The notes beneath the pieces are model-generated. The model ran no database searches, was not told the origin of the DNA, and worked only from the letters and a program-made list of their open reading frames with translations. A stretch of 36,753 nt of DNA, taken from IMG/VR virus record IMGVR_UViG_3300042564_000835, positions 1 to 36,753 of that record; one strand, written 5' to 3'. The position numbers were made by a program, and so were the translations under genes. Each line of letters starts with the position of its first letter. Position 1 is the stretch's first letter. Shown here piece after piece: positions 1 through 36,753 of the stretch. This DNA comes from a virus.

Positions 1-237
1 AACCTTATCACCGGCTACAAAGACTTTTAAAAGCTGAGGGAGAGCTGACTCAATAGTATCTTGAACGTCATACGATACAACTTGTGAACGACCTTCTTCT
101 TCGTTACCGAATGGTTGTCCTAGGTAGTAGTCAATCGCTTCTGCTCTATCATTAGACAATGCACTATCATTTACACCATAGGCTATATTCTCTTGCGCCT
201 CTATCTGTGCAATTATTTCCATGTCTTCTATATTCAT
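1..237 (-). CDS. Portal protein, N-terminal fragment cut by window edge
   Basis: This is the first 79 codons of the portal gene, the same as the start of the complete copy at 34482-36485. The ATG at 237-235 shares its A with the terminase stop (TGATG), which suggests coupled translation. Differences from the complete copy are synonymous here. The rest of the gene is missing only because the window ends. Confidence 0.92.
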   Translation of the reverse strand, partial: MNIEDMEIIAQIEAQENIAYGVNDSALSNDRAEAIDYYLGQPFGNEEEGRSQVVSYDVQDTIESALPQLLKVFVAGDKV

Positions 238-505
238 CAAACAATTCCTCTATTTGTATATTGTATTTTCTCTTTGCTCCATGACTCGTTCTTCATAGAC
301 TCAATAGAGGTACATAAATATCTGAACGCATCTGCTCCATGGCTGTATTCGTCATGTAGTGGCGCACCAGGTTCGTTAGTTGCAGAGTTTATACTTCTGC
401 GATAATTCTTTAAACATTCAACAAGTCTTTGTGCTGACTTATCAAAGTATATACGGTGGAAGTTCATACGTGCTAACTTAATACCAGACTCTATGTCTGC
501 TTTAG
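1..505. repeat. Left copy of near-identical 505-bp terminal overlap
   Basis: Bases 1-505 match 36249-36753 at 492 of 505 positions without gaps. Both copies span the portal start and the terminase C-terminus in the same frame. The overlap shows that the sequence closes into a circle or concatemer of about 36,248 bp. The mismatches show that the two ends do not come from one identical molecule. Confidence 0.93.
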
Positions 506-1493
506 GTACGATACGTATATCCCATCCTAACTTCTTCATAATATCTTCTGCTGATATACCATGCTTAAAGTCTTTAGACTGTCCGTCATGTGGTAAGAAC
601 ATTGTACCCCAGTTATAGGATAAGTTCTTTAGTTGTGCAGAATAACTATCTAGTGTTCTGTGGTCATCTTCTATATAACCAATGATGCGTAAGTCTGATA
701 TACCCTTTTGGCATAGGATAACTGACATGCTGTCGTTCCATCCTAAGTCCATGACTACATGAACCTTCATCATAGGGTCATAAGGTACAGTTGTAATACG
801 GTTACCTTCTTGTGCTTCTCTTATCTCGTTAGAGTATATAGCACCATCTACAGCAGCCTTACAATCACCTAACCATATGTTTGCATAGTCAGGGTTAGTC
901 TTCTCGCTATGCTGACGTTCTATTTCAAGAACTTCGCTGAACCATGGATTATCCATGTAATTTAGCTTAACTACCTTAGCGTTCTCTGGTGGGTTTACAC
1001 AATAGCGTAAGTATGTATCGTCTGTATCTAGCCCAGGATTAAATGATACCCATATCTCTGACTCTGGTTTACGTATAGTAGGAATAAGTATATCCCACGA
1101 TTTGCGTGAAATGGTCTGAGCCTCCTCACACCATACACGGTCTATGCCTTCATAACTTTTTATTGACTCGGCTGTGTTATTAGCTAAACCTGTAAATACA
1201 AATAGACTACCGTTAAGACCACGTATCTCTGACTCTAATACTTCATAAAACTGACCTAAACCTAATGCTTGTATCTGGTCTGACAAAAGCTGGTGAACTG
1301 AGTTTTTAATACTACGTTGCACTTCTCGTGCACATAATACACGCAATGGTTTATTAGCTGCTTGCAATAATAATGCTCTAGCAAATCCCCATGACTTACC
1401 TGAACCTCTACCACCGTATGCTACTTTGTAACGGTGTGGCTCAAATAAGAAGTCTAGCTTACTCGGAAACTGGGCTATCGTCTGGCTTGACAA
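237..1493 (-). CDS. terL: Terminase large subunit (packaging ATPase/nuclease)
   Basis: This 418-residue protein is the packaging motor that translocates DNA into the prohead and cuts the concatemer. The ATPase half has a Walker A loop GGRGSGKS at residues 27-34 and a Walker B strand ending in WCEEAQ near 121-126. The C-terminal RNase H-like nuclease shows an acidic strand VVMDLGW with Asp249 and a late HGADAF motif. Length and motifs fit the PBSX/Terminase_3 type. The start is a TTG at 1493 preceded by AGGA at good spacing, and no ATG lies before the conserved region. It overlaps the end of the small subunit by 35 nt and the portal start by 1 nt. A second, partial copy of its C-terminus lies at 36485-36753. 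Confidence 0.96.
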   Translation of the reverse strand: MSSQTIAQFPSKLDFLFEPHRYKVAYGGRGSGKSWGFARALLLQAANKPLRVLCAREVQRSIKNSVHQLLSDQIQALGLGQFYEVLESEIRGLNGSLFVFTGLANNTAESIKSYEGIDRVWCEEAQTISRKSWDILIPTIRKPESEIWVSFNPGLDTDDTYLRYCVNPPENAKVVKLNYMDNPWFSEVLEIERQHSEKTNPDYANIWLGDCKAAVDGAIYSNEIREAQEGNRITTVPYDPMMKVHVVMDLGWNDSMSVILCQKGISDLRIIGYIEDDHRTLDSYSAQLKNLSYNWGTMFLPHDGQSKDFKHGISAEDIMKKLGWDIRIVPKADIESGIKLARMNFHRIYFDKSAQRLVECLKNYRRSINSATNEPGAPLHDEYSHGADAFRYLCTSIESMKNESWSKEKIQYTNRGIV

Positions 1494-1776
1494 AGCTAAT
1501 TCCTATTCCAATAGGTAAATCTTTACCATCTGCTCCGGTAATCTCTTGAATGGCTACTGCTTTACCATCTAATCTATCGCCAATCTCTTTTGCTGCACCT
1601 AAATCACCTTCTGCTGCTTTTTCAAATAGCTTTTCAGCAATAGCGTGTATGCGTCTGTAATCTTCTTGTATGGCTAATTTACGAATTGTATTTGCCCATA
1701 TCCTGTTGTTTTTATTAGAATTTGTATTACCGGCTGGGGCTCCTACTTTAGGTTCTTTATCTTCATTGTTATCCAT
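1459..1776 (-). CDS. Terminase small subunit (probable)
   Basis: This 105-residue protein sits directly upstream of terL and overlaps it by 35 nt. The N-terminus is hydrophilic (VGAPAGNTNSNK), followed by a helical segment and the phrase AKEIGDRLDGKAV, which is seen in small terminase-like proteins of many phages. It probably recognises the packaging site and feeds DNA to TerL. An AGGAG lies about 10 nt before the ATG. Identification rests on position, size and the short motif. Confidence 0.72.
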   Translation of the reverse strand: MDNNEDKEPKVGAPAGNTNSNKNNRIWANTIRKLAIQEDYRRIHAIAEKLFEKAAEGDLGAAKEIGDRLDGKAVAIQEITGADGKDLPIGIGISFVKPDDSPVSE

Positions 1777-2814: not shown

Positions 2815-3117
2815 TTATTTTCCTTTTTTTGAATTACGTGTACTAATAGCTTTAGCTTTTGCTTTTGCATCCGCTTTACTTGATGCTCCCCATGCTTTTA
2901 ATGATAATAATAATCTTGTAGGTTCGCCATTAGGTTTGCGTTCTGGGCCTGGCATATTACCCATACGTGCTAAAAATGATGCGCGTCTTGGGTTATCCCC
3001 TGCTTTTACAGGCGCTTTTAAATTACCACCAGTTTCTTTATTATAAGAAGCCCTGCCTTTAGCATTTAATCCGCCCTTTGGATTTTTACCGGCTTTTTTT
3101 GTCCATGCGGCAGTCAT
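2815..3117 (-). CDS. Conserved basic phage protein (DUF6321-like), 100 aa
   Basis: It begins MTAAWTKKAGKNPKGGLNAK and has the internal phrases RRASFLARMGNMPGP and LLLSLKAWGASSKADA, typical of a widespread phage protein family of unknown function that I remember as DUF6321. The protein is Lys/Arg/Gly-rich. Its ATG overlaps the stop of the upstream gene by one base (TAATG). It is one of four adjacent small basic proteins, so a DNA-associated or virion role is possible, but that is inference. Confidence 0.75.
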   Translation of the reverse strand: MTAAWTKKAGKNPKGGLNAKGRASYNKETGGNLKAPVKAGDNPRRASFLARMGNMPGPERKPNGEPTRLLLSLKAWGASSKADAKAKAKAISTRNSKKGK

Positions 3118-3293
3118 TATTTTTTCTTCTTTTTGCTCATGCCTGCAGAGCTAAGTGCAATTGCAATTGCTTGCTTTGGTGATTTAACAATCGGACCTTT
3201 TTTAGTGCCTGTGTTTAATTTACCAGCTTTAAATTCTTTCATTACTTTGTTTACCTTTGCCATCTTGCCGGCTTTCGTTGTTGGCTTCTTCAT
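3117..3293 (-). CDS. DUF6496-like small protein, 58 aa
   Basis: The sequence KVNKVMKEFKAGKLNTG followed by KSPKQAIAIALSSAG matches the pattern of DUF6496 proteins, common in phages and some bacteria and of unknown function. The ends are basic (MKKPTTKAGK and a terminal run of five lysines). It ends TAATG, coupling it to the next gene. It overlaps the preceding zinc-ribbon gene by 65 nt. Confidence 0.75.
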   Translation of the reverse strand: MKKPTTKAGKMAKVNKVMKEFKAGKLNTGTKKGPIVKSPKQAIAIALSSAGMSKKKKK

Positions 3294-3396
3294 TTGGTAT
3301 CCTTATAAAAATATGGTCAAACTGACAATCAGGGCAAACAGGATAACCGGTTGAGTCAAAGACATTACCGCACTGTTCACACACATTAATATTCAT
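3229..3396 (-). CDS. Zinc-ribbon mini-protein, 55 aa
   Basis: Two CxxC pairs (VCEQCG and VCPDCQ, 15 residues apart) form a zinc ribbon in the first 25 residues, and the tail is hydrophilic. I start it at the ATG at 3396. A TTG at 3426 is also in frame but would translate through the terminator hairpin. The ATG lies only a few bases after the U-tract and has no clear Shine-Dalgarno, so it would be expressed only when the terminator is read through. It is the first gene of the late operon. Function is unknown. Confidence 0.55.
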   Translation of the reverse strand: MNINVCEQCGNVFDSTGYPVCPDCQFDHIFIRIPNEEANNESRQDGKGKQSNERI

Positions 3397-3399
3397 GAT

Positions 3400-3423
3400 A
3401 AAAAAAATCCCACCGAAGTGGGA
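3400..3423 (-). terminator. Intrinsic terminator with UUCG loop, downstream of Q
   Basis: On the minus strand the stem TCCCAC / GTGGGA closes a TTCG tetraloop and is followed at once by eight T residues (3407-3400). This is a textbook rho-independent terminator. It sits about 40-60 nt after a consensus promoter and before all late genes, the place of tR' in lambda. Confidence 0.9.
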
Positions 3424-3463
3424 CAATTGGAGATTATAAATGATAGAGACTACTCCTCTATCG
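3400..3463 (-). ncRNA. Predicted ~64-nt leader RNA between late promoter and terminator
   Basis: Transcription from the promoter at 3470-3498 should begin near 3463 and stop at the U-tract at 3400. The RNA would hold two hairpins: GATAGAG pairing with CTCTATC close to the 5' end, then the UUCG terminator. It has no convincing reading frame. The layout matches the short 6S-type RNA made from lambda pR' when Q is absent. Transcript ends are inferred. Confidence 0.6.
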
Positions 3464-3469
3464 CCTTGT

Positions 3470-3498
3470 ATTATACTCTAAATTTAATTATTTGTAAA
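3470..3498 (-). promoter_or_regulatory. Strong sigma70 promoter, candidate late promoter
   Basis: On the minus strand TTTACA (3498-3493) is followed after exactly 17 nt by a perfect TATAAT (3475-3470). It lies directly after the Q-like gene and drives toward the terminator at 3423 and the late genes beyond. It is the best promoter match I found in the window. Confidence 0.8.
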
Positions 3499-3503
3499 CA
3501 TAT

Positions 3504-3833
3504 TTATATATTTATTTTGCGGCTGGCTAATGTAAGCAAATTGTCTAAAGCTAATTCATGTTTATATTCAAATGCAAATGGTTTTTTAGCATTAAGATAG
3601 TTATGATATAGAGCATCTTGCTGTTCTTTTGGCAAGTTATGAATAATAGTATCTAATATTCTAATATTATTACTATCTTGTATAGCAATTAAATCATCAA
3701 ATGAATCTTCAGTTGATACTCCACCAGAACTTAATCCAATTGACTTTGATGGAAATCCTAATTTATGATTTGATTTCCGCATCCATAATGCCCATCCATC
3801 TAATATTTCAAGTAATCTAGTCATTGTTAACAT
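3504..3833 (-). CDS. Q-like late antitermination protein
   Basis: The 109-residue protein has the layout of the Phage_antitermQ family (P22 gp23 type): an N-terminal LEILDGWALWMR, then LGFPSKSIGLSSGG, an acidic SFDDL and a helical C-terminus with IIHNLPKEQQDALYHNYL. Q proteins load onto RNA polymerase paused just after the late promoter and make it ignore terminators. The position supports this: the gene is followed at once by a consensus promoter, a short untranslated leader and an intrinsic terminator. The start is ATG 3833, overlapping the upstream stop (TAATG); a second ATG is at 3824. The family call is from motif memory, so moderate on sequence but strengthened by context. Confidence 0.68.
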   Translation of the reverse strand: MLTMTRLLEILDGWALWMRKSNHKLGFPSKSIGLSSGGVSTEDSFDDLIAIQDSNNIRILDTIIHNLPKEQQDALYHNYLNAKKPFAFEYKHELALDNLLTLASRKINI

Positions 3834-4153: not shown

Positions 4154-4238
4154 GTTTTTTCTTTCCAAAAATTAAATCAAAATTTTTATCAAATTCCTTA
4201 CGGTCCGCAAATGGACGTGGCGCACTACCTTTCCCCAT
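4068..4238 (-). CDS. Small phage protein beginning MGKGSAPRPF, 56 aa
   Basis: The opening MGKGSAPRPFADRKEFDKNF is a recurring start of small phage proteins found near NinB and YbcO-like genes. No function is known. Its ATG shares the A of the upstream stop (TAATG at 4238). The C-terminal third overlaps the following nuclease-like gene in another frame, so both starts are translated from one stretch of mRNA. Confidence 0.62.
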   Translation of the reverse strand: MGKGSAPRPFADRKEFDKNFDLIFGKKKHGNKPDSIDSEKITERELPVIPSSREME

Positions 4239-4519
4239 TATTTAATTCCAATCATATCATGTTCAAATAAATATTGTATTGTATTAATATAAGCACGATT
4301 CCACATGTCCCTTCTATCTTCTTTTGATAACTCTTTTCCATTATCAAGATGGAAATGACATTCATGGCATAATGCCGCTACTAATGCGTCCGATACTTTA
4401 CTCCCCATACCTTTACCTTCATTGCGATGAGCCGCGCAAACAGTTTCTGATTGAATGCCACAATGTTGGCATGGCAATTCGCGTACAAGTTTTGTTAGTT
4501 TAATATTGCGGTATATCAT
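4238..4519 (-). CDS. YbcO/DUF1364-type HNH-like nuclease
   Basis: From ATG 4519 the 93-residue protein has CQHCG (Cys17, Cys20), then AAHRNEGKGMGSK, and LCHECHFHLD (Cys51, Cys54, His57). This arrangement is characteristic of the DUF1364/YbcO family, a metal-dependent beta-beta-alpha nuclease found in lambdoid nin regions. It follows NinB, as in lambdoid phages, which suggests a shared role in recombination or resolution. The longer frame upstream of 4519 overlaps NinB and is unlikely to be used. Confidence 0.8.
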   Translation of the reverse strand: MIYRNIKLTKLVRELPCQHCGIQSETVCAAHRNEGKGMGSKVSDALVAALCHECHFHLDNGKELSKEDRRDMWNRAYINTIQYLFEHDMIGIK

Positions 4520-4871
4520 GTGGGAATTTAAATCCAAATTCATTTGCAAAACGTTCAATATTAGCATTATACTCTGAAAACTCATCTGTTGTTAATGAAC
4601 TTGTAGACTTTATTACAATTACAGATTGCCCAGCAATTTCTTTTTGCACAGATAAATATTTCCATTTTAATAAATCATGAAGTTCAATATCAGAATAACC
4701 TAAATAGTCTCCTAATTCTTTAAGCATAATCCAATATCTATCGTTTTGTGATAATGACCTTAAAGATTTACTCTCGCTAATTGTTACTTTCCAAATTTTT
4801 TTAAAATTTAGTTCTTTTAATTTGTTGATTAAAAGTGGTAAATTCGTTTGAGTTAAATTGAATTTTATCAT
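4500..4871 (-). CDS. ninB: NinB/Orf-type recombination mediator
   Basis: The protein begins MIKFNLTQTN and contains KSLRSLSQNDRYWIMLKELGDYLGY, the hallmark of the NinB (lambda Orf) family, followed by the STSSLTTDEFSEY segment. NinB binds single-stranded DNA and helps annealing-type recombination, which fits the ERF and exonuclease genes on the other strand. Start ATG 4871 has GGATGG upstream. It overlaps the previous small gene by 71 nt and the YbcO-like gene by 20 nt. Full length is 123 residues. Confidence 0.82.
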   Translation of the reverse strand: MIKFNLTQTNLPLLINKLKELNFKKIWKVTISESKSLRSLSQNDRYWIMLKELGDYLGYSDIELHDLLKWKYLSVQKEIAGQSVIVIKSTSSLTTDEFSEYNANIERFANEFGFKFPHDIPQY

Positions 4872-4983
4872 CTTTCCATCCTTTTGTTTGTTTAAATACA
4901 ATGCCATCTTTAGTTGTTACTTTATATTCTATATCATTACCAAATATTTTTTGGCATTCTTTAATAAAATCATTAATTGTCAT
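4801..4983 (-). CDS. Hypothetical 60-aa protein
   Basis: This small protein (MTINDFIKECQKIFGNDIEY) is coupled by a 4-nt ATGA overlap to the helicase stop. No domain is recognised. The C-terminal third shares DNA with the NinB start in another frame. Confidence 0.55.
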   Translation of the reverse strand: MTINDFIKECQKIFGNDIEYKVTTKDGIVFKQTKGWKDDKIQFNSNEFTTFNQQIKRTKF

Positions 4984-5891
4984 ATTGGTTTATCCATATA
5001 ACGTAAAGATTTTGGCTCAAACCATAATGGGATGCTACCTTCCCATTCAAAATGTCTTTGTTTATTAATAGACATATAAGCATCAGGTATTAATTTAATT
5101 TGCCCTTCTTCAATTTTGCCTTCTAAAATATCTTTTTCTTTACGTTTATTTCTATATACACTAACACAATTATCCGCTAAATTTGTAATTGTTGCACTTC
5201 CGGCTACATCAAATTTTCCTGGTGTATGCGAAGTTTCATCTATTGTTTTTCTACTATGGGCAACAAGATGAATATGAATATTAAGGTCTCTAGCAGCAAT
5301 ACAAAGCTGGTCTACAAACTTTTTTTGACCATTATAGTCATCTTCATTTATAGAACACTTCATTAAACTATCTACTACAAAATGCTGAATACCCATTTGC
5401 TCAGCACCATAATAAATTACTGATAATACAGCCGTTGGATTTGTAGAACCTAATTGGTCATACAAAAATAATTTTCCTGCATTAGTATTACAAAAATTAG
5501 TTATTGCGTTTTCTGTAGGTTCGTTAGTTCCTACTGACTGGCGAATATATCTAGCCAATGTACTTTTACAAGACATTTCAAATGAGCATATCATAGTTTT
5601 ATAATTTTCAAATAACTTTAATGTTATATAACTAAGTAGCATGCTTTTGCCGTGTCCTGAATAGCCGGACCAAATTGTAGTCTCCCCTAAACGAAGTCGA
5701 AAGTTTTCTGCTTTTTCAAATGGTAAATATGCTCCGCTTTGAATTTCTCCTGTAAAATATTTAATAGTATCATCTATAAATAAATCAGGACTTTTAATTT
5801 TTCTATACTCTTCACTATCACGAACAAAAAAATAATTTTTTATTTTATCTTCATTAACCATTAATTCTTTAACTTTTTCTTCTAATGACAT
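4980..5891 (-). CDS. Replicative DNA helicase (DnaB/T7 gp4 RecA-like core)
   Basis: The 303-residue protein is a ring-helicase motor. Walker A is GYSGHGKS (residues 76-83), the Walker B strand HFVVDS has Asp174, and LVAHSRK (His212) forms the nucleotide sensor. A conserved GSATITNLADN arginine-finger region follows. It is close to the T7 gp4 C-terminal helicase in size and lacks primase parts. These are encoded, in part, by the preceding gene, which it overlaps by 10 nt. It should unwind the fork for a host DNA polymerase, because no phage polymerase is present. Confidence 0.9.
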   Translation of the reverse strand: MSLEEKVKELMVNEDKIKNYFFVRDSEEYRKIKSPDLFIDDTIKYFTGEIQSGAYLPFEKAENFRLRLGETTIWSGYSGHGKSMLLSYITLKLFENYKTMICSFEMSCKSTLARYIRQSVGTNEPTENAITNFCNTNAGKLFLYDQLGSTNPTAVLSVIYYGAEQMGIQHFVVDSLMKCSINEDDYNGQKKFVDQLCIAARDLNIHIHLVAHSRKTIDETSHTPGKFDVAGSATITNLADNCVSVYRNKRKEKDILEGKIEEGQIKLIPDAYMSINKQRHFEWEGSIPLWFEPKSLRYMDKPI

Positions 5892-12822: not shown

Positions 12823-12835
12823 TGCCTTTAAGGCA
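12823..12835. terminator. Weak bidirectional terminator at convergent junction
   Basis: TGCCT and AGGCA form a 5-bp stem with a 3-nt loop. T-rich sequence follows on both strands. It lies between the last rightward gene and the end of the leftward late operon, 3 bp from the stop at 12838. Confidence 0.5.
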
Positions 12836-13961: not shown

Positions 13962-14411
13962 TTATACACCTAAAAACAATTTACGTTCATCTAATCTTCT
14001 GTTTTGTAAACCTTTTAATATCTTGCCACCAGCTCTACAATATTTGACTAACGACTCCATAGCCGCTTCTTTATCGCCACGAAGCAACGCTTGACGGATG
14101 GTTGAACGCTGAAAGCATCCAAGACCCAAATTAAAGCAAAAGCTGACAAGAGCGTCAAACTCATGTTGTCTAAGAGGCACGTTAGGTAACATCTTATGTA
14201 TTCCCAACTCAAAACGGTTGAGGTCGTGTTTAAGAATTCCATCTATTTCCTCGTTAGTAAATGTTTTATTCCATGACGCTGGTAACGTTTTACCATCACC
14301 GATAAGATGACCAACACCCACAGTCCACAACCCAGCAGGACATTTGTAAGGTTTATTTTTAACACCTTCGTGATGACGTAGTAACTTGATAAGTTTATCA
14401 GATACTTTCAC
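13962..14411 (-). CDS. Endolysin, GH24 lysozyme
   Basis: The catalytic triad of phage lysozymes is visible as Glu-8 residues-Cys-5 residues-Thr: HHEG (Glu15), YKC (Cys24), LWT (Thr30), followed by VGVGH. The Cys variant of the T4 triad is common in lambdoid R-type endolysins. It cleaves peptidoglycan. I start it at GTG 14411 (VKVSDKL), giving 149 residues and a 14-nt overlap with the holin gene. A TTG at 14486 would add a hydrophobic, signal-like N-terminus read out of frame from the holin gene; that form cannot be excluded. Confidence 0.9.
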   Translation of the reverse strand: MKVSDKLIKLLRHHEGVKNKPYKCPAGLWTVGVGHLIGDGKTLPASWNKTFTNEEIDGILKHDLNRFELGIHKMLPNVPLRQHEFDALVSFCFNLGLGCFQRSTIRQALLRGDKEAAMESLVKYCRAGGKILKGLQNRRLDERKLFLGV

Positions 14412-14895
14412 GTTTCTTTTCCCATGTACGAGAGCCGAAATAGAAACCAATAATAGATGCAGTAATAGCCATTTCTTCAGAACCAAATACTTCTTGAGAT
14501 GCTACAACAAAGTCTACACCTGACCACATAGCCCATGCTAATGAGATAAGGTTGATAAGCACTAACTCACCTACAAAGATAAAGGCTACTACAGGTCTAA
14601 CCATAGCGTTCCAATTCTTAACTGTAGGGCTTGCATTTTCTACTAACTTCTTATCGTGGTCGTATAATGCTTCACGTTCTTGTGCGTATGTTTGCACTTC
14701 TATTTGGTCTAGCTTAATAGCTTCTATCTTTTCTTGAGATATAAAGCCTGCTTTAGCTAATTCTAATTCACGTTCTGTTTGTAGTTTAGCCATTTCTCTT
14801 TCATGCTTCTGGTCACCCTTTTGCTGAAAGAAACCTAAAACACTAGGTAAGCCTGAAGTAGCAAAACCTAATATACCTGATAAAATACTTAACAT
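14398..14895 (-). CDS. Holin, GTA 3TM type
   Basis: The 165-residue protein has an N-terminal hydrophobic segment, a long charged coiled-coil (EREMAKLQTERELELAKAG), then two C-terminal membrane segments (VAFIFVGELVLINLI and ITASIIGFYFGS), and ends SRTWEKKRESI. The order and the NWNAMVRPV phrase match the three-helix holin family named from gene transfer agents (GTA_holin_3TM). It would let the endolysin reach the wall or depolarise the membrane. It is directly upstream of the endolysin. Confidence 0.82.
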   Translation of the reverse strand: MLSILSGILGFATSGLPSVLGFFQQKGDQKHEREMAKLQTERELELAKAGFISQEKIEAIKLDQIEVQTYAQEREALYDHDKKLVENASPTVKNWNAMVRPVVAFIFVGELVLINLISLAWAMWSGVDFVVASQEVFGSEEMAITASIIGFYFGSRTWEKKRESI

Positions 14896-28466: not shown

Positions 28467-29075
28467 TTATCTTGGTGTTACGCTTAATGTTGTGTATGGA
28501 TATGTTGCACCTAAATCACTCTTCTTAATATTCGCAATTGCTCTATCGTATAAAGCAGACCATGTAGCAATTCTTTGGTCGTTCATAAGATATGGTTCTG
28601 CCTCTGCTAGAGTTGCGTAAAGTAGAGCATCTGGATAGTATGCTAAGAACAAATTACTAGCTGTTGTGCTAGAGATAAATGTAGGTTGAGCATAATATAA
28701 AATTTGAACTGTGTAGCTTGTATCAGGACCTGGTGCAAACTTAAATTCTGTACCTAACATTGTAAAATAGTGAGGTCTGCCTGATAATGTTGTTTGACCA
28801 TCTCTAAAGAATAAGTCAGGTGACTGAAACTCTAGTAACACAGGTGGGTTACCTAACATGTGTATTTCTCTGACTTCTAAAAAGTCTGTAGGAAAGCCTA
28901 CTGTGCTATCTGTAGTGTCAGCAGTAGCGACTTTTAACATTCTTTCTGTTCTTAAATCACGAGTCATTCTAAATTGTGCCATCTGAATGAAGTCAGGTAT
29001 CTGTGATGTTAAGTCTGTTCGTGCTAAGTAGTTTTCTACCGTAGTTACAAACGAGGTATAGTTAGTAAACGCCAT
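28467..29075 (-). CDS. Head-tail adaptor (gp4/SU10-like), 202 aa
   Basis: MAFTNYTSFVTTVENYLAR and PDFIQMAQFRMTRDLR, then FPTDFLEVREIHM and YPDALLYATLAEAEPYLMND are the pattern of phage adaptor proteins that bind under the portal ring and seat the tail nozzle. Its place after the portal and capsid and before tail genes agrees. It overlaps the sugar-enzyme-like gene by 14 nt. Confidence 0.75.
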   Translation of the reverse strand: MAFTNYTSFVTTVENYLARTDLTSQIPDFIQMAQFRMTRDLRTERMLKVATADTTDSTVGFPTDFLEVREIHMLGNPPVLLEFQSPDLFFRDGQTTLSGRPHYFTMLGTEFKFAPGPDTSYTVQILYYAQPTFISSTTASNLFLAYYPDALLYATLAEAEPYLMNDQRIATWSALYDRAIANIKKSDLGATYPYTTLSVTPR

Positions 29076-29775
29076 CTAATTGTCCTTTTAGTCTATCCCA
29101 GCACTTGTCCATCTCATCTTTATGCCATTCACTAGCAGCTAATGAGCTTAACCATGCTGTTCTGTCAAAATATGTTAAGTTTTCTATGTCTTTAATGTTA
29201 TTGGATACAGGGTTTGCAGGGCTATAAGGTGAACCTATGACAGGAACACCACGAATAAGTGCTTCTACATCTGCGACACTACCAAAACTCACAATGACAT
29301 GAGCTTTTTCTAATGTTTGTTTAAAGTCACCTTCGCCTTTACGCTTAATGACAATCTTTCTTTCTGTATGTTTTCTAATCTCTTCTACCGTTCTGTCTAA
29401 CCAATTAGAAGTTTGGTAAATATAAGCTATCTTTTCTGGTGGAGGTAACACAACTACGTTTTCACCACTACGATACTCGTGAACTTTAGGTGTTTCTCTA
29501 TCTGATACACGCCAATCTGTGCAATGGTAGTTATTTACACAGAATCTAGCCCATTCTAATTCAGATGACCTGTGAAAGTAGCCATGGTCTATTAGAATAT
29601 AAGGTATGTTTTGTTCTCTACAGGCTATTTGTATCTTATCTGCACCCTGTAAATTACCTACTACAACTGGAATAGACTTACCATCCCATTCTCTTGTTAA
29701 AATACCCTTACAATGCTTTTGCAAGCGTTTTAAGACCTTATCTCTGCGTTCTATGCCACTCAGTATTAACTGCAT
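29062..29775 (-). CDS. GT-B-like / capsule-synthesis-like glycosyltransferase, 237 aa
   Basis: The C-terminal half shows a nucleotide-sugar binding pattern (VIVSFGSVADVEALIRGVPV then GSPYSPANPVS) like polysaccharide transferases of the capsule synthesis type. The N-terminal half has VVVGNLQGADK and IPYILIDHGYF. It is the third gene of a glycosyltransferase block inside the head operon and overlaps its neighbour by 38 nt, so the exact start is uncertain. Confidence 0.62.
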   Translation of the reverse strand: MQLILSGIERRDKVLKRLQKHCKGILTREWDGKSIPVVVGNLQGADKIQIACREQNIPYILIDHGYFHRSSELEWARFCVNNYHCTDWRVSDRETPKVHEYRSGENVVVLPPPEKIAYIYQTSNWLDRTVEEIRKHTERKIVIKRKGEGDFKQTLEKAHVIVSFGSVADVEALIRGVPVIGSPYSPANPVSNNIKDIENLTYFDRTAWLSSLAASEWHKDEMDKCWDRLKGQLDGVY

Positions 29776-30490
29776 CTAAAACCTGTTCTACGGTGATTGC
29801 TTTGCTTTTTAGAAGGCAATGTTGACATACGCTATCATAAGTCCCACATGGCTCTGAACCGTCATGTATATTTCTATGGGTGTCATATCCTAAGTGCCTC
29901 GGTGAAGTAAAACCTGTCCATATCACTACGGAAGGTATGCCTAATGCTGCTGCTGCATGATGTAAACCACCATCTGTGCCTACAAATAACTTTGCTTTGC
30001 TTAATACTTGTAATGCTTCTCTAAAGGTATTTGTTTCTTTCCACTTTGTATATCGTTTTACAGTAACATCACCTAACTGTAGCCATGGTAAGTCATGTTT
30101 AAATAACTCTTCCCAATCATGCCATGCTTTATTAACTGTGTGTGCATAGACTCTTTTAACATTAGGCTCTACTACTATGTAGTCCTTATCTATTTTATCT
30201 ATGACTTCTTGTTCTTGTTCACTAAAGTATATTTCGCCTACTCTAGGCTTATAGTCATCATTGAATAATAACCGACCATTCTTAGTGCCTTTGAGATATG
30301 GTCTATGACCTTGATAGTTTTTAACCCATACTACGTCTGTATCAGAGTTACTAGCCATTCTAGGATTGTTAGCAAATACTTGACCATCCCATGACATTCT
30401 AACGCCATCACCTAACTTAACCTTCTTACCGGTTCTTTCGTGAGCTTCTTTAGCATCACCTGATGCCATTAACCAATCACCAAGTCCCAT
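29738..30490 (-). CDS. GT9-like glycosyltransferase (heptosyltransferase type), 250 aa
   Basis: The opening GLGDWLMASGDAKEA and the segment LFVGTDGGLHHAAAALGIPSV are typical of the GT9 heptosyltransferase fold, followed by a Cys-rich loop (CGTYDSVCQHCLL). In cells GT9 enzymes add heptose to LPS core. Here the acceptor is unknown. It overlaps the TPR protein by 14 nt and clearly acts with it or after it. Confidence 0.76.
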   Translation of the reverse strand: MGLGDWLMASGDAKEAHERTGKKVKLGDGVRMSWDGQVFANNPRMASNSDTDVVWVKNYQGHRPYLKGTKNGRLLFNDDYKPRVGEIYFSEQEQEVIDKIDKDYIVVEPNVKRVYAHTVNKAWHDWEELFKHDLPWLQLGDVTVKRYTKWKETNTFREALQVLSKAKLFVGTDGGLHHAAAALGIPSVVIWTGFTSPRHLGYDTHRNIHDGSEPCGTYDSVCQHCLLKSKAITVEQVLDAVNTEWHRTQR

Positions 30491-31817
30491 TTAACTGTTT
30501 AGCCACTTTATTGATAACTTCTTTCCAAGTATCATTGTCTTGGTAGATAATTCTCATGTGACGATACCAAGGCATACTAGGTTGAGCATAACGCCATTGA
30601 TGCCATGTAGGAACTAGACACCATGTCTTTACTCCCATAGCTGCTGCACAATGTTGAGCAGTTGTATTTACACCTAAGACCATATCACATTCAGCTATTA
30701 ACGCTGCTGTATCATCATAGTCTTTTGCACTTGTTGCAAAATCAAAGTATTTAACACCGTCTAATTTGCGTTCTACGCTATAATCTAAACTGACTATCAC
30801 ATAGTCTTTGAGCTTTAATAATGGTTCTATATCTTCTTGTGTTAGTTCACGACCTTTAGCGTTAGTATGTTTAATACCACCTTTAGTCGTAAGACCTATA
30901 ACTTTCTTACCCCATGAGTCAAATAACCCACGCCACATAGTGCGTCTTTCAGGGTCAGCTTTTAGATAAGGTGTGCCAGGAAAGTCTTTATTCGTATGTC
31001 TAAAGAACTGTGGTAAACCACCTATGGCACATCTGTAATCAAACTTCTTATCTGCTAACCATTCAGGGCTATCTTCTTTACGAGTGCCATGAACTTCTGC
31101 TTCTGGAAAGCTACGTTTAAATAATCCTTCCAGTCTTGGGTCACAGTCTATATAGACTTGCTTACTAGAGCTAATAGCATCAGGAATACAGCTACCATAA
31201 AATATCTCATCACCTAGACCTTGTTCGCCATAGATAATAAGTGTTTTGTCTTTAGTGCCATCCCATCTTATTTCGTCACCATATACCCATTCTTTACGGA
31301 ACTTACCACCTAGTGACTTATGCCATTCTGCCCAACCTTTATCCCATTCACCTTTAGCTAAGTAAGTGTGTGCTAGGTTTAGTTGACCATGTAAGTCGTT
31401 AGGGTTACATTCTAAAGCCATCTTACAGGCTTTCTCTGCATCATCCCATTTAGATGTTTGTACTAGCGTTGCTGCTGCATTAGAATAAGCTAATGCGTAT
31501 GTAGGGTCTAATTCTGCTGACTTTAAGAAATACTTTAGAGCATCTTCATACATGTTTAGTTCATGTGCTGCACGACCTAGTGATGTCCATATAGCTTTAT
31601 TGCCTGGCATCTCTTGTAATGCTCTACGGAAGAACTGATATGCAAATGCAGGCTTATCGCCCATTAACCAGATATAACCTAAGAAGTTTAATGTAGCGGC
31701 TTCATTAGGATATTCTTCTAATACAGAATATATAAGTGGTAATGCTTCGTCATACTTTTCCTGATTGATAAGGTCATGTATGGCTAATTGTATCTTTTGT
31801 ATTTCTTGTTTATCCAT
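30477..31817 (-). CDS. TPR repeat protein fused to GT9-like glycosyltransferase, 446 aa
   Basis: Residues about 15-170 contain four to five tetratricopeptide repeats (for example ATLNFLGYIWLMGDKPAFAY and AYSNAAATLVQTSKWDDAEK). From about 190 a transferase domain begins (TLIIYGEQGLGDEIFYGSCI) and has VLGVNTTAQHCAAAMGVKTW near its end, equivalent to the GT9 sugar-nucleotide site. TPR-transferase fusions often glycosylate proteins, as O-GlcNAc transferase does. A virion protein is therefore a possible acceptor. Confidence 0.8.
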   Translation of the reverse strand: MDKQEIQKIQLAIHDLINQEKYDEALPLIYSVLEEYPNEAATLNFLGYIWLMGDKPAFAYQFFRRALQEMPGNKAIWTSLGRAAHELNMYEDALKYFLKSAELDPTYALAYSNAAATLVQTSKWDDAEKACKMALECNPNDLHGQLNLAHTYLAKGEWDKGWAEWHKSLGGKFRKEWVYGDEIRWDGTKDKTLIIYGEQGLGDEIFYGSCIPDAISSSKQVYIDCDPRLEGLFKRSFPEAEVHGTRKEDSPEWLADKKFDYRCAIGGLPQFFRHTNKDFPGTPYLKADPERRTMWRGLFDSWGKKVIGLTTKGGIKHTNAKGRELTQEDIEPLLKLKDYVIVSLDYSVERKLDGVKYFDFATSAKDYDDTAALIAECDMVLGVNTTAQHCAAAMGVKTWCLVPTWHQWRYAQPSMPWYRHMRIIYQDNDTWKEVINKVAKQLNGTW

Positions 31818-32133: not shown

Positions 32134-32148
32134 AATAAAAATACAACA

Positions 32149-32168
32149 GAGGGAAAATTAATTCCCTC
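32149..32168 (-). terminator. Hairpin after the capsid gene, probable terminator
   Basis: GAGGGAA and TTCCCTC form a perfect 7-bp stem with a 6-nt loop. On the minus strand a TATTTTTATT tract follows after six bases. It would lower expression of genes after the capsid gene, whose product is needed in great excess. Confidence 0.6.
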
Positions 32169-32188
32169 CATTATATCATATCTAATTA

Positions 32189-33142
32189 CTAAGCACCTAC
32201 GTTTTGAATCTTAGCATGTGCATCTGGGTTTTGAACCACAAGTGCGTACTCTGCTGTCAATAGGTATTTAGTTGAGTCACCAGTCTTAGCAAGTTCTTCT
32301 TTGCTTAAAGGACGTAGTGAAGCTAAACCAACATAGCCTGGGTCAATACATAGAACTGCTTGGTCACGCATGAAACGGTCAAGTTTCACAGTATGATTAC
32401 CGAAGTCAGAAACGTAAACGTCTGCTGCACCAGTAATTGAAGCCTGTGCTTTAACTTGTACGTCTACAAACTTAGTAGCAATACCAGCAAAGCCAGAGAA
32501 ACGTGACTTGTTAGTTGCTGACATAAGGATTGTTGATGGCTCGCCACCATCTGTCCAAGCTAATTGTAAAGCTGACTTTAAGTCTGCTTCAATGAATGTT
32601 ACTGAAGTACCGTCTGTAGGAGCTGCAACAATACCGTTTACGAAGCCAGGTGTTGTACCTGCTGTAGAACCTGTAGCAATTACTCGGTTAGTAATCCAAG
32701 ATTCAATACCTGCTGATGTACGAGCTGTTGCTGGTCCACCTGCTGATGATGCTTGGTTACGTACTAAAGCAAACTCCATGTCACGTTTCATTTCTTTACC
32801 AGCTTTCATAAGTTGGTAAGCAACTTCAGACTTACGACCATACTTACGTACTACGTCATATGTGTTTGAAATTTGAACTGTTTTGCGTGAGATTTGAGTA
32901 TAGTTGCCTAATACTGTTGTTGCTGCTAATGTTGAGAATGAAGCGTCATCACCTTCAACTGAAGCGTTAGTAGCTGCTGCTGCTAATGCGTCTGTTTGCC
33001 ATTGATGGTAAGTTTGACCTGCTGACATTCTTTTTGCCATTGATAACAATGGTGTGTCTTCTGGAGAAATATCAAAAATGATATCTTCAAATGACTCTGC
33101 TATACCTTTACCGGTATAACTATTGGTTGCTGATGCTGGCAT
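32189..33142 (-). CDS. Major capsid protein (SU10/DUF5309 type), 317 aa
   Basis: NSYTGKGIAESFEDIIFDIS, PEDTPLLSMAKRMSAGQTYH and EWQTD-like HQWQTDALAA form the signature of the SU10-type capsid family (DUF5309), an HK97-fold shell protein. GSTAGTTPGFVNGIVA and VDVYVSDFGNHTVKLDRF-like segments belong to the A-domain. It follows the scaffold gene and is followed by a hairpin. AAAGGA precedes the ATG. Confidence 0.9.
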   Translation of the reverse strand: MPASATNSYTGKGIAESFEDIIFDISPEDTPLLSMAKRMSAGQTYHQWQTDALAAAATNASVEGDDASFSTLAATTVLGNYTQISRKTVQISNTYDVVRKYGRKSEVAYQLMKAGKEMKRDMEFALVRNQASSAGGPATARTSAGIESWITNRVIATGSTAGTTPGFVNGIVAAPTDGTSVTFIEADLKSALQLAWTDGGEPSTILMSATNKSRFSGFAGIATKFVDVQVKAQASITGAADVYVSDFGNHTVKLDRFMRDQAVLCIDPGYVGLASLRPLSKEELAKTGDSTKYLLTAEYALVVQNPDAHAKIQNVGA

Positions 33143-33163: not shown

Positions 33164-34153
33164 TTAAAGCATGTTTTCTATAAGTTTTTGAGCTGCATCT
33201 GACTTACCTGTTTTACGTAATGACTCACGTAATTGACGGTGGTTAGAATTAGCTTCCGCTTTAGTATCTTTAGAACCAGGTTTCACTACTGGTTTAGCAC
33301 TTGATACTTTTTTCTTTACAGTAGAATTCTGTTGAAGTTTTCGCCATTGCATAGCGTCATGCAATACCTTTACGTGACGAGGGTCAACAATTGAATTGAG
33401 TTCGGCATCTGAAAAACCATAATCCTTGCCAGTAGATAACAATGCTTGGTTAGTCTCAGGACTCCAATTTGGTATCTCTTTTGCTAGAATTTCTTTTCCT
33501 TTTGCTATCTTCTCAGACATCAATTGCGTTTGCTTCTGAACGACTTGTTGCTTTTTGGCTTCAAACTGTGAAACAAGTTGACTACGTTCTTGCTGTAGTT
33601 GGTTGTATGTAAAGAAAAGTTTTTGTGCTTCCACAAAGTCATTATCAGACAATTGTTGCCAATTCACGTTTGCATATTGGTTTAATTGTTGGTCTAATGA
33701 TGTGATTTTTGCTACATCTTCAATTAAGACATTGTTAAGTTGCATCTGCTCTTGAAAGGCTTGCTCTTGAGCTTTTATACTCTCAGCATAGGCTTCTAGC
33801 TCTTTGCGTTGTTCTGCTACTTGTTGTGTCTTTTGCGTGTAGTCTAAGCCTTGTTGAGCTAATGCTACTACTTCGTCTAGTGGTTTCTCAACATCTTCAC
33901 CATTGACTTTAAGTTTAAGGATAGCAGGAACTTCATCTTGCGACTGTTCTTCTTCCTCAGCTTCGTCATCTGATTCTTCTGTTGCTTCTTCTTCAGTCTC
34001 TACTTCATCAGTAGTTTCTTCAGCTTCAGCCTCTAGTGGTGTTTGTTCTTCTTCGTCTTGAAGTTCAGGTGGTTTAACATCTGACTCAACACTATCACCA
34101 AGCATAGTCTCTAACCGACTTTGTGGTGACTGTTCTGCGACTTGGTCACTCAT
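33164..34153 (-). CDS. Scaffolding protein, 329 aa
   Basis: The first 100 residues are extremely acidic (EEEATEESDDEAEEEEQSQD), followed by a long coiled coil rich in Gln (QQLNQYANVNWQQL, QLQQERSQLVSQFEAK) and a basic C-terminus (KPVVKPGSKDTKAEA, then RQLRESLRKTG). Acidic body and basic tail that touches the capsid protein is typical of scaffolds. It lies directly before the capsid gene. Confidence 0.82.
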   Translation of the reverse strand: MSDQVAEQSPQSRLETMLGDSVESDVKPPELQDEEEQTPLEAEAEETTDEVETEEEATEESDDEAEEEEQSQDEVPAILKLKVNGEDVEKPLDEVVALAQQGLDYTQKTQQVAEQRKELEAYAESIKAQEQAFQEQMQLNNVLIEDVAKITSLDQQLNQYANVNWQQLSDNDFVEAQKLFFTYNQLQQERSQLVSQFEAKKQQVVQKQTQLMSEKIAKGKEILAKEIPNWSPETNQALLSTGKDYGFSDAELNSIVDPRHVKVLHDAMQWRKLQQNSTVKKKVSSAKPVVKPGSKDTKAEANSNHRQLRESLRKTGKSDAAQKLIENML

Positions 34154-34180: not shown

Positions 34181-34205
34181 AAAAAAACCTACCGAAGTAG
34201 GCTTT
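34181..34205 (-). terminator. Intrinsic terminator with UUCG loop before scaffold gene
   Basis: Minus-strand GCCTAC TTCG GTAGGT followed by seven T is nearly the same design as the terminator at 3400-3423. It divides the packaging/portal genes from the scaffold/capsid genes in the middle of the late operon, with no clear promoter after it. Confidence 0.85.
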
Positions 34206-34219
34206 AAGTGGGCTTGTCC

Positions 34220-34492
34220 TTACCCAAATATCTTAAACTTAGGTCTGTCCGTTTGGATAGCTGCTAACTTACCTGTGTGCATCACGTCAGTAAGTTGCTT
34301 GTTAATTTGGTTTAGTAGTTGTAGTGCTATTACTAATTTGTTATGTGTCTTCTCATCACCTAGTGGACTGTTAGCCATACTAGCAATAAGACTTTCTCTT
34401 ACCTTATCCATAGCTTCTTTGTAGATAGGGTTATCTAATATCTGTGATGCTTGTTCACCACGTTTAACTTCTTCTAATGACTTATCCGCCAT
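34220..34492 (-). CDS. Small head-associated protein, 90 aa
   Basis: MADKSLEEVKRGEQASQILD, then DKVRESLIASMANSPLG and ALQLLNQINKQL are features of a small conserved helical protein found between portal and scaffold in aquatic podoviruses. Function is unknown. It overlaps the portal by 11 nt and precedes a terminator. Confidence 0.65.
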   Translation of the reverse strand: MADKSLEEVKRGEQASQILDNPIYKEAMDKVRESLIASMANSPLGDEKTHNKLVIALQLLNQINKQLTDVMHTGKLAAIQTDRPKFKIFG

Positions 34493-36485
34493 ACATCATC
34501 CCTGATTGTGCTTTGATTTGTGCGATAGCTAAATCAGTCTCAGCTTTTAATTGTGCCTTGAAGCGTTCTAGTTCTGCTTGAGCTGCTATCTTTTCACGTT
34601 CAATTATAACATCATTCTGTGAACGTACTTGCTCTTGTTGTAGTTGAGCTTGAGCTTTTTGTTGTTCAATTTGCAACTGACCTTGCACCATAATCTCTGC
34701 TTCAGAAGGCTTGTCTTGTTGACCTTCTTGCTCAGGTGTATTAGCTGGATTAACCCAGAACTCTTCAGGGTTCTTAAAGCCTGCATTCTGTGTAAGTTTA
34801 GCTAATGCGTTATATATCTTTTCAGGGTTAGTTAAGCCAACAGCAATAGCTTCTTTTTGCATATTTAAGATAGATGTTAAGTGAACCAATTGTTGGTCTT
34901 TATTACCTGCACCTAAGCCTACAGAGATAGATAAGTCTTTACGAGCTTTCCATTCTCTAGGGTCTACTTCTACCCATTTGTTACGTAGACGAATAATGTC
35001 TGGTTTAGTAAGTGTTGTTCTAACTAAATGATGCACAAGTTTAAATAACTCTTTAACGCCTGTCTCTGCAAATGTTCTAGCTACTAACTCAATACGTTGT
35101 TGAGACGCATTCATAATCTGTGCTACACCAGTAGCTGTCTTATTAAGACTGTTAGAGTCTAAGCCTTGGTTGTAAGCTGTGATACCTGTTCTCTTCTCTT
35201 TCATAGAGTCCATGTATTCAACCATACCGAATGATGATGCTGGTAGTGGTGGATGTGATAAAGGCATAATGCCTGAACCTGGGTCACCTTCTACACGAAC
35301 AATACCACCTGGACGTGACGTTAGCATATCGTCTAGGTTTACTCTGTCAGATATTGCATAACGACCATTGTTAGCTAGATACATATTATCTAACTGACCA
35401 CGAATAAGTGTTGACTTAATTAACTGAATGTCCATAGTCAAGTCAGCATAAGAACGACCAATATGTCTATGTGGCATTATCATAGGTGTGATACATGCGA
35501 AAGGTACATACTCACATTTCTCTTTATAAAGAACTGTGTTACCTAATACGACTACTCTATATCTTTCACCATCTAACTTAATGTATGTGTCTTTAACGAG
35601 TGCTTCTTGTGACTCAATAGCTCTATCATATTCTTCATCATAAATATCACGAGCATTAGACTCTTCTTCAAAAGTGTCTCGTAGGTCTGACATAATAGAC
35701 TTGATGTATTCTAATGGCTTGTCAAACGTTTCAGCAATGTCAGCTAACTGCATAACTTCTCTGTGTTGAACAAACTTAGCATCTTGTAGGTTAGGACCTG
35801 ATACCTCTACAGATATCATCATGTTTTCAGGTGCTACGTTATCAATGTATATTTCAGTCTTGCTTTCTGTAACCTTGAGCTTAACGTCATGTAACATAGG
35901 TTGCATAACTGTAGCTGGGTCTACACCATTCATAGCTGCTTGTTGATAGACAACATCCATGTTGACACTTGGGTCAGGGTAACCAGTATGCTCTAATACT
36001 TCTGTATTCTCATCTGAAGCCAACATTTGAAGTTGGGCGTCTGTCAACCCCTTGTATTCGTATTCTTCTTCTTCCTCTTCTTCTTCGGCATATACTTTTA
36101 CATAACCGTTCTTAGATAGTAATGCGTCTTTAAACCATACATAGAATACTTTGAAACCTTCGTTCTTTTCCATAACGACATGGTTTACATAATCTGTTTC
36201 TTGGTCTGCTGCTTCTTGGTCTTCAGGACCTTTAGGGTCAAACTGAACAACCTTATCACCGGCTACAAAGACTTTTAAAAGCTGAGGGAGAGCTGACTCA
36301 ATAGTATCTTGAACGTCATACGATACAACTTGTGAACGACCTTCTTCTTCGTTACCGAATGGTTGTCCTAGGTAATAGTCAATCGCTTCTGCTCTATCAT
36401 TAGACAATGCACTATCATTTACACCATAGGCTATATTCTCTTGAGCCTCTATCTGTGCAATTATTTCCATGTCTTCTATATTCAT
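34482..36485 (-). CDS. Portal protein (P22-like), 667 aa
   Basis: The 12-subunit portal ring is the gate for packaging and tail attachment. DDYYLGQPFG-like AIDYYLGQPFGNEEEGRSQV, then LPQLLKVFVAGDKVVQF and FVPCITPMIMPHRHIGRSYA-like segments are characteristic of the P22-type portal family. A run of acidic residues (Glu135-143 region) lies in the wing. The last 80 residues are a Gln/Ala coiled coil (LQIEQQKAQAQLQQEQ), like the P22 barrel. Start ATG 36485 overlaps the terL stop (TAATG). Confidence 0.92.
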   Translation of the reverse strand: MNIEDMEIIAQIEAQENIAYGVNDSALSNDRAEAIDYYLGQPFGNEEEGRSQVVSYDVQDTIESALPQLLKVFVAGDKVVQFDPKGPEDQEAADQETDYVNHVVMEKNEGFKVFYVWFKDALLSKNGYVKVYAEEEEEEEEYEYKGLTDAQLQMLASDENTEVLEHTGYPDPSVNMDVVYQQAAMNGVDPATVMQPMLHDVKLKVTESKTEIYIDNVAPENMMISVEVSGPNLQDAKFVQHREVMQLADIAETFDKPLEYIKSIMSDLRDTFEEESNARDIYDEEYDRAIESQEALVKDTYIKLDGERYRVVVLGNTVLYKEKCEYVPFACITPMIMPHRHIGRSYADLTMDIQLIKSTLIRGQLDNMYLANNGRYAISDRVNLDDMLTSRPGGIVRVEGDPGSGIMPLSHPPLPASSFGMVEYMDSMKEKRTGITAYNQGLDSNSLNKTATGVAQIMNASQQRIELVARTFAETGVKELFKLVHHLVRTTLTKPDIIRLRNKWVEVDPREWKARKDLSISVGLGAGNKDQQLVHLTSILNMQKEAIAVGLTNPEKIYNALAKLTQNAGFKNPEEFWVNPANTPEQEGQQDKPSEAEIMVQGQLQIEQQKAQAQLQQEQVRSQNDVIIEREKIAAQAELERFKAQLKAETDLAIAQIKAQSGMMYGG

Positions 36486-36753
36486 TAAACAATTCCTCTA
36501 TTTGTATATTGTATTTTCTCTTTGCTCCATGACTCGTTCTTCATAGACTCAATAGAGGTACATAAATATCTGAACGCATCTGCTCCATGAGAGAACTCAT
36601 CATGCAATGGTGCACCAGGTTCGTTGGTTGCAGAGTTTATACTTCTGCGATAATTCTTTAAACATTCAACAAGTCTTTGTGCTGACTTATCAAAGTATAT
36701 ACGGTGGAAGTTCATACGTGCTAACTTAATACCAGACTCTATGTCTGCTTTAG
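36249..36753. repeat. Right copy of near-identical 505-bp terminal overlap
   Basis: This is the partner of 1-505. Nine of the 13 mismatches lie within 22 bases (36590-36611), all but one silent. True terminal repeats of one molecule would be identical, so this is better read as an overlap between two variants. Confidence 0.93.
36485..36753 (-). CDS. terL: Terminase large subunit, C-terminal fragment (second copy)
   Basis: The last 89 codons of TerL, cut by the window edge. Compared with 237-505 the protein differs only by Phe for Tyr in HDEFSHGADAF, although there are ten base changes in this stretch including the stop codon. It is the same gene as 237-1493 on a circular map, from a slightly different variant. 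Confidence 0.92.
   Translation of the reverse strand, partial: KADIESGIKLARMNFHRIYFDKSAQRLVECLKNYRRSINSATNEPGAPLHDEFSHGADAFRYLCTSIESMKNESWSKEKIQYTNRGIV

Follow-up and report, generated by a model that had tools for sequence, protein, structure and literature searches.

The whole stretch of DNA analysed here, referred to as the window, comprises the 36,753 nt of the viral record IMGVR_UViG_3300042564_000835. On its minus strand, the gene for a small Q-like protein is directly followed by a promoter, a leader, an intrinsic terminator, and the late genes. The elements of this unit are located as follows.

3504..3833, minus strand: gene for the Q-like protein of 109 aa (ORF and predicted fold)
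3493..3498, minus strand: -35 element TTTACA, 5 nt past the end of the Q-like ORF
3470..3475, minus strand: -10 element TATAAT, separated from the -35 element by a 17-nt spacer
near 3462-3464, minus strand: predicted transcription start (inferred position)
3442..3462, minus strand: leader hairpin GATAGAGG-AGTAG-TCTCTATC, the arms of which stay paired in relatives with changes on both sides
3429..3438, minus strand: TATAATCTCC box in the interval between hairpin and terminator; CTCC is seen again in several clades
3400..3424, minus strand: intrinsic terminator with a 7-bp stem, UUCG loop, and T8 (stem 3424-3407, end of T-tract 3400)
3229..3396, minus strand: first late ORF, Zn-ribbon-like, with its ATG 3 nt beyond the T-tract

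The promoter and leader unit

The promoter agreed with the consensus at 11 of 12 positions, a score reached at only three sites in the whole window, and no site scored 12/12. From the predicted start to the end of the T-tract, the leader RNA would measure ~64 nt. The 68-nt stretch formed by hairpin and terminator folded with -20 kcal/mol compared with a mean of -10.6 kcal/mol for shuffled sequences, and 0/200 shuffles were as stable. Scanning both strands of the whole window for a promoter with a close terminator returned solely the unit at 3400-3498. A sequence-only reading of this DNA had placed TTTACA-17-TATAAT within 6 bp of a Q-like gene, followed by a leader of about 64 nt with a hairpin and a UUCG terminator with eight T. 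The 5 nt between ORF and -35 element, the positions listed above, and the comparison of the fold with 200 shuffles bear this out; the promoter-leader-terminator observation is confirmed and far from chance.

Besides the Q-like gene, the minus strand encodes replication proteins, NinB, an HNH protein, and a 111-aa ORF; the switch unit and then the late genes follow. That late genes in the same direction follow the terminator, as had also been claimed, proved correct: the Zn-ribbon-like ORF, TerL, portal, scaffold, capsid, structural genes, and lysozyme are all found there. With SU10-type portal, capsid, and adaptor proteins, the virus is an SU10-like podovirus. The main features of the late operon are the following.

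1459..1776, minus strand: late gene with a weak DUF5681 match, adjoining TerL; putative small terminase by position only
237..1493, minus strand: late gene for the large terminase (TerL)
34482..36485, minus strand: late gene for the SU10-type portal, the largest ORF of the window
33164..34153, minus strand: late gene for the scaffold
32189..33142, minus strand: late gene for the SU10-type major capsid protein
13962..14486, minus strand: late gene for the lysozyme
34184..34205, minus strand: intergenic terminator (terminator-like hairpin) within the late operon
32140..32177, minus strand: second intergenic terminator-like hairpin within the late operon, between late genes

The terminators inside the late operon call for processive readthrough. 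None of the 26 ORFs scanned in family libraries (the window has 86 ORFs of at least 60 aa) matched an RNA polymerase.

Several further features of the window were recorded. Positions 1-505 and 36249-36753 form an imperfect terminal direct repeat of ~505 nt with several mismatches, e.g. Y/F in the C terminus of TerL; thus, the record represents roughly one complete genome (~36.25 kb), and strains vary where its ends overlap. At 12823-12835, where two operons converge, the palindrome TGCCTTTAAGGCA forms a hairpin that is flanked by T-rich sequence on either strand and is probably a bidirectional terminator. The late region also contains a glycosyltransferase-family-8-like gene (1812-2606) and a TPR gene with neighboring unassigned genes (29062-31817). 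Close behind the unit, a DUF6321 protein is encoded (2815-3117), for which the PHROGs matches were confined to the ends of several profiles of far greater length.

Recurrence of the unit in related phages

A tblastn search of the Q-like protein against 50,697 phage records yielded three relatives. Two of them had been annotated by their depositors, the protein from MW202481 (52%) as 'phage antitermination protein Q' and that from Venkman MT375522 (44%) as 'antitermination-like protein'; the third was gp41 of EBPR podovirus 1 (31%), where TerS and TerL are the next genes. Alignment scans of viral contigs reported ~400 relatives each (418, 431, and 392), of which 80 per scan were kept. Together with the named records, these gave 244 loci, 138 of them distinct and 131 with enough downstream sequence. 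The 138 distinct loci fell into 18 protein clusters at 85% identity and are therefore not independent. No relative was found in a scan of genome contigs, and a further scan gave one gapped locus in a Flavobacteriaceae MAG.

A strict finder located the unit at most 200 nt from the Q-like stop codon in 102/131 loci and up to 1 kb downstream in eight more. As a control, the 3' ends of the other ORFs of these loci were scanned as well; the unit occurred at 5/1156, in each case because an inserted gene had displaced it, and Markov shuffles gave 0/2620. In the remaining 21 loci, the strict finder saw no unit. Eleven of these show the unit by eye, with an imperfect terminator stem; among the others, the unit is cut by the contig end in L035, L048 ends too early, and two EPV1-type loci carry TTGACA-17-CAGAAT plus a terminator. 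Six Venkman-type loci encode the Q-like protein, and the unit was not found nearby. The sequence diverges among related loci and the order of the elements stays, which supports the order of Q gene, promoter, short leader, terminator, and late genes proposed from the window. Six of the eight displaced units were situated directly behind the inserted gene, mostly a DNA methylase; L064 and L066 have extra spacer. Since the unit stays behind the inserted gene, it belongs to the late operon.

The search was also carried out in the opposite direction. Three leader motifs alone, searched in viral contigs, retrieved 81 loci, and a Q-like ORF was present upstream on the same strand in 77 of them. Two of the remaining four are cut at the contig edge, and in L324 a methylase precedes the contig edge. 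In the fourth, L321 (5071 nt for the whole locus), the leader unit lies behind a methylase, and no Q-like gene was recognizable in the 5 kb upstream, which points either to a diverged Q replacement or to a Q gene elsewhere.

Additional observations were made on individual loci. DNA methylase genes were repeatedly seen to be inserted precisely between the Q-like gene and the late promoter unit (L033-L036, L042, L045, L048, L049, and L079), and the methylase ahead of the leader unit in L321 is at 4208-4993 on the reverse strand of that locus. In the Venkman record (L252; 38,624 nt), the Q-like gp37 is part of an operon on the plus strand that runs toward the late genes on the minus strand, unlike the window, and the unit was not found within the record, whose end cuts a gene. 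The Q-like proteins of the EPV1-type loci L168 and L169 are 87% identical, and their promoter-leader-terminator DNA is identical over >100 nt, as if recombined or strongly constrained.

Before pause motifs, distance correlations, ATG spacing, and direct repeats were counted, seven loci that were mispicked or without unit (L033, L238, L008, L237, L236, L232, and L227) were dropped. Where TTGACA occurs at the Q stop codon (73 loci), the -35 hexamer contains the TGA of this stop. TATAAT was exact in 99 and TGn was present in 96 of 107 units. L114, L123, L135, and L181 possess two tandem terminators. Among 96 unique units with a recognizable first gene, the first late ATG followed within 20 nt of the first T-tract in 83. 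This spacing leaves no room for another sigma70 promoter, and late transcription must therefore pass the terminator.

These results bear on the idea that the unit encodes a stand-alone regulatory small RNA, in which case the protein would be an unrelated HTH regulator and transcription of the late genes would arise otherwise. A strong promoter and a compact two-hairpin RNA would agree with this, as would Rfam matches to bacterial small RNAs such as TarB; the latter, however, were far below the cut-offs and were taken as chance, and the leader matched no Rfam family at gathering score. Moreover, the clades differ in leader sequence, yet the order of promoter, hairpin, terminator, and late ATG is constant, and another promoter has no space in those 83/96 units. 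We consider a small RNA of this kind very unlikely.

The Q-like protein and its predicted fold

Q proteins known experimentally stem from a few lambdoid phages, in addition to AlpA. When searched as a single sequence, the window protein matched no Pfam family and no PHROG. The sequence-only reading had called the switch lambda-like and had suggested comparison of the protein with PF06530. Five of 19 relatives matched PF06530 weakly (best E value 1e-4; Venkman, 14.9 bits), and the curated cut-off of 26 bits was reached in no row seen, neither for the window protein, which did not match at all, nor for its relatives; the suggested relation is borne out weakly. Sigma70_r4_2 was matched by 8/19 relatives (best E value 1.4e-3), with none seen over the cut-off. 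The Q proteins of lambda, phi80, and Qin all match PF03589 (Antiterm), whereas neither the window protein nor its relatives do. By sequence, the protein does not belong to the lambda Q family, and what stands of the lambda-like designation is that arrangement, predicted fold, and weak profile matches point to Q. Lambda, HK022, phi80, and P22 yielded no PF06530 match, and a PDB-sequence profile search did not find 21 Q.

The structure of the window protein was predicted with AlphaFold2 from a 19-row alignment (pLDDT 77.7). The model consists of a helix (residues 4-19, with Trp14 and Trp17), a loop (22-44), and HTH-like, sigma-R4-like helices (51-66, 69-80, and 88-107). The loop is strongly conserved in sequence and has a pLDDT <50. 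Trp14 is kept in all family members and the second tryptophan in most. The Q protein of phage 21, which has its own pR'/tR' (PDB 6P18, 6P19, and 6JNX), has been described as possessing a sigma-R4-like HTH, a helix and loop that form a ring in the exit channel for RNA, and a tryptophan in H1 that contacts RNA polymerase (PMC6606751). The conserved tryptophan of the window family may parallel this polymerase-contacting residue.

In a Foldseek search of the PDB, sigma R4 domains were many among the best matches, with E values of 1.9 or worse. VIA-align, with 87 alignable chains, ranked 6p18_Q first (Z 7.9, rmsd 4.7, 96 residues aligned over 2..109) and 6p19_Q second (Z 7.4, rmsd 4.8, 95 aligned), compared with 6.4 for sigma R4; a Z below 8 is under the safe level of the tool and may reflect a common helical arrangement. 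The next-ranked sigma rows cover residues from ~39 on only, and the 21 Q rows include the N-terminal helix as well. For a second family member, 6p19_Q again came second (Z 6.7, rmsd 3.8, 87 aligned), tied with sigma R4 rows. The absence of lambda Q and AlpA from the VIA-align lists proves nothing. As judged from these predicted structures, the suggestion is that the closest structural relative of the window protein is phage 21 Q.

Accepting this, the window and phage 21 would share a promoter with a downstream intrinsic terminator, a sigma-R4-like HTH, and an N-terminal helix with a ring or loop segment, the latter two being predicted here. They differ in that the window protein has 109 aa, whereas for the 21 Q chains of known structure the alignment spans residues 11-151. 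With lambda and phi80, the window has in common the succession of Q, pR', short leader, terminator, and late genes; the terminator annotated for phi80 begins 53 nt beyond the -10 element. In contrast, lambda Q and phi80 Q belong to PF03589, and the window protein matches no Pfam family. As defining features were looked for and not found, the protein is not filed in the 21 Q or the lambda Q family. By its arrangement, the unit is a Q-type late switch.

The protein could instead be a sigma-R4-like activator of initiation at late promoters, with a terminator that merely ends early transcription. The Sigma70_r4_2 matches in 8/19 relatives and the sigma R4 domains among the best Foldseek matches are in line with such a role, but the promoter precedes the terminator and by itself comes close to the consensus (TATAAT 99/107, TGn 96/107), and the alignment to 21 Q extends past the sigma-R4 part to the N-terminal helix and loop. 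An activator function of this type is highly improbable.

The leader and the proposed mechanism

Conservation within the unit was analyzed for 49 unique units of the L007/L060 type, which have TTGACA at the Q stop. The upstream spacer carried 0.58 bits of mean information and the five bases at its end 1.40; the values were 0.87 for positions -6 to -1, 1.39 for +1 to +35, and 0.81 further on. In this type, the conserved first ~35 transcribed bases contain the hairpin and, in most leaders, a pause motif. Over 107 units, correlation with Q-protein distance was r 0.64 for the leader, 0.49 for the terminator, and 0.39 for the spacer. In phage 21, Q recognizes two direct repeats of TGAGCA that are located between the -35 and -10 elements (PMC6606751), whereas no such site was detected here: the best direct repeat in the window spacer was 4/6, and 6-mer direct repeats (at least 5/6) were present in 15/68 spacers, which is not above shuffles (mean 9.7, maximum 19).

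Pairing of the leader stem was assessed in alignments of 21 (A7) and 19 rows (A8), hand-chosen from 61-64 unique leaders to span clades, with near-identical ones left out. In the 21 rows, 95.2% of cells pair, one pair has changed on both sides, and the fourth pair is mismatched in 4/21 rows. In the 19 rows, the 4-bp core pairs in 88.2% of cells compared with 36-55% when slid, and three pairs have changed on both sides; the shuffle controls are moderate, with 11 to 197 of 500 shuffles reaching the values observed for these 19 rows, depending on the measure. Extension to seven pairs weakens the signal (68.4% paired).

The motif GG-N8-YG, which we take to be the spacing of the consensus pause, was found in 51/61 unique leaders compared with a shuffled mean of 5.3; one of the 51 lies elsewhere and looks like chance. 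Such a consensus pause has been described (PMC5995543). The motif is absent from the leader type of the window itself (L003 and L011) and from the L076/L081 type, and it is thus no part of the mechanism in the window as it stands. A -10-like element soon after the start is a trait of the phage 21 Q family; here, hexamers resembling -10 elements (A2/T6, at least 4 matches) occurred in 47/61 unique leaders (shuffled mean 26.7, maximum 37) in varying register. A TATAAT-like box before CTCC was considered as a second sigma pause element and rejected because its register is not constant.

From the parts present, their order and conservation, and the predicted fold of the protein, we infer that the latter very probably acts as a Q-like antiterminator, loading close to the promoter and letting host RNA polymerase pass the terminator into the late genes. 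The sigma70 polymerase of the host would start at the strong promoter directly behind the Q-like gene and, without the Q-like protein, stop at the terminator ~64 nt on, so that a short RNA but no late mRNA is made. Expressed from the early operon, the 109-aa protein would load on polymerase retained close to the promoter. With the C-terminal sigma-R4-like HTH, it would read the promoter/leader region, and the N-terminal helix with the conserved loop would form a nozzle at the RNA exit channel as in 21 Q and AlpA. The polymerase modified in this way would pass the leader terminator as well as those within the late operon.

In favor of this mechanism we count the unit behind the Q-like gene (102/131 plus eight displaced), the motif-first result (77/81), the tandem and late-operon terminators, the ATG spacing, the 21 Q chains at the head of the VIA-align list, the weak PF06530 and Sigma70_r4_2 matches, and the depositors' antitermination names. 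Against it we count the Z values below 8, the Foldseek E values of at least 1.9, the unreached PF06530 cut-off, the six Venkman-type loci without the unit nearby, the convergent Venkman layout, and the L321 unit without recognizable Q. Least probable of all is antitermination by the leader RNA itself without a protein, as by HK022 put, for which the kept hairpin with changes on both sides would speak, but the hairpin is small and varies between clades, a Q-like gene accompanies the unit in 77/81 motif-first loci, and the protein resembles 21 Q.

With HK022 put, the unit shares nascent RNA structure near the promoter (PMC9378689) and differs from it in that a dedicated protein gene travels with the unit. 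AlpA is a small HTH antiterminator that forms a nozzle in the exit channel, and terminators begin +54 and +26 after its promoters; likened by these descriptions, the window resembles it in the small HTH protein and the close terminator, but the site of Pseudomonas AlpA is in the spacer and AlpA serves a host lysis program (PMC7969949, PMC9371919). A doubtful but conceivable extension of the Q-like reading is a miniature fourth Q family. Its loading signal would have been relocated from the spacer to the first ~35 transcribed bases, and the protein would recognize the paused complex or nascent RNA instead of spacer DNA. The moved signal may be an RNA hairpin, or an open-bubble inverted repeat, that overlaps a pause.

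Titles and abstract openings in the literature gave no description of such a unit for aquatic or SU10-like phages, and PMC9004378, consulted for Venkman, did not mention 'antitermination'. That further Q-type proteins will be found is expected in the Discussion of the AlpA paper (PMC9371919). Beyond the sequence-only reading, the unit is widespread, recurring across a large group of related uncultured aquatic phages, and its conserved part, in one clade, lies in the transcribed leader. The 109-aa candidate and its many natural promoter-leader-terminator variants would allow a comparison of which bases load a Q protein, and the unit offers a candidate mechanism of late control for small phages where a phage-encoded RNA polymerase was not seen.
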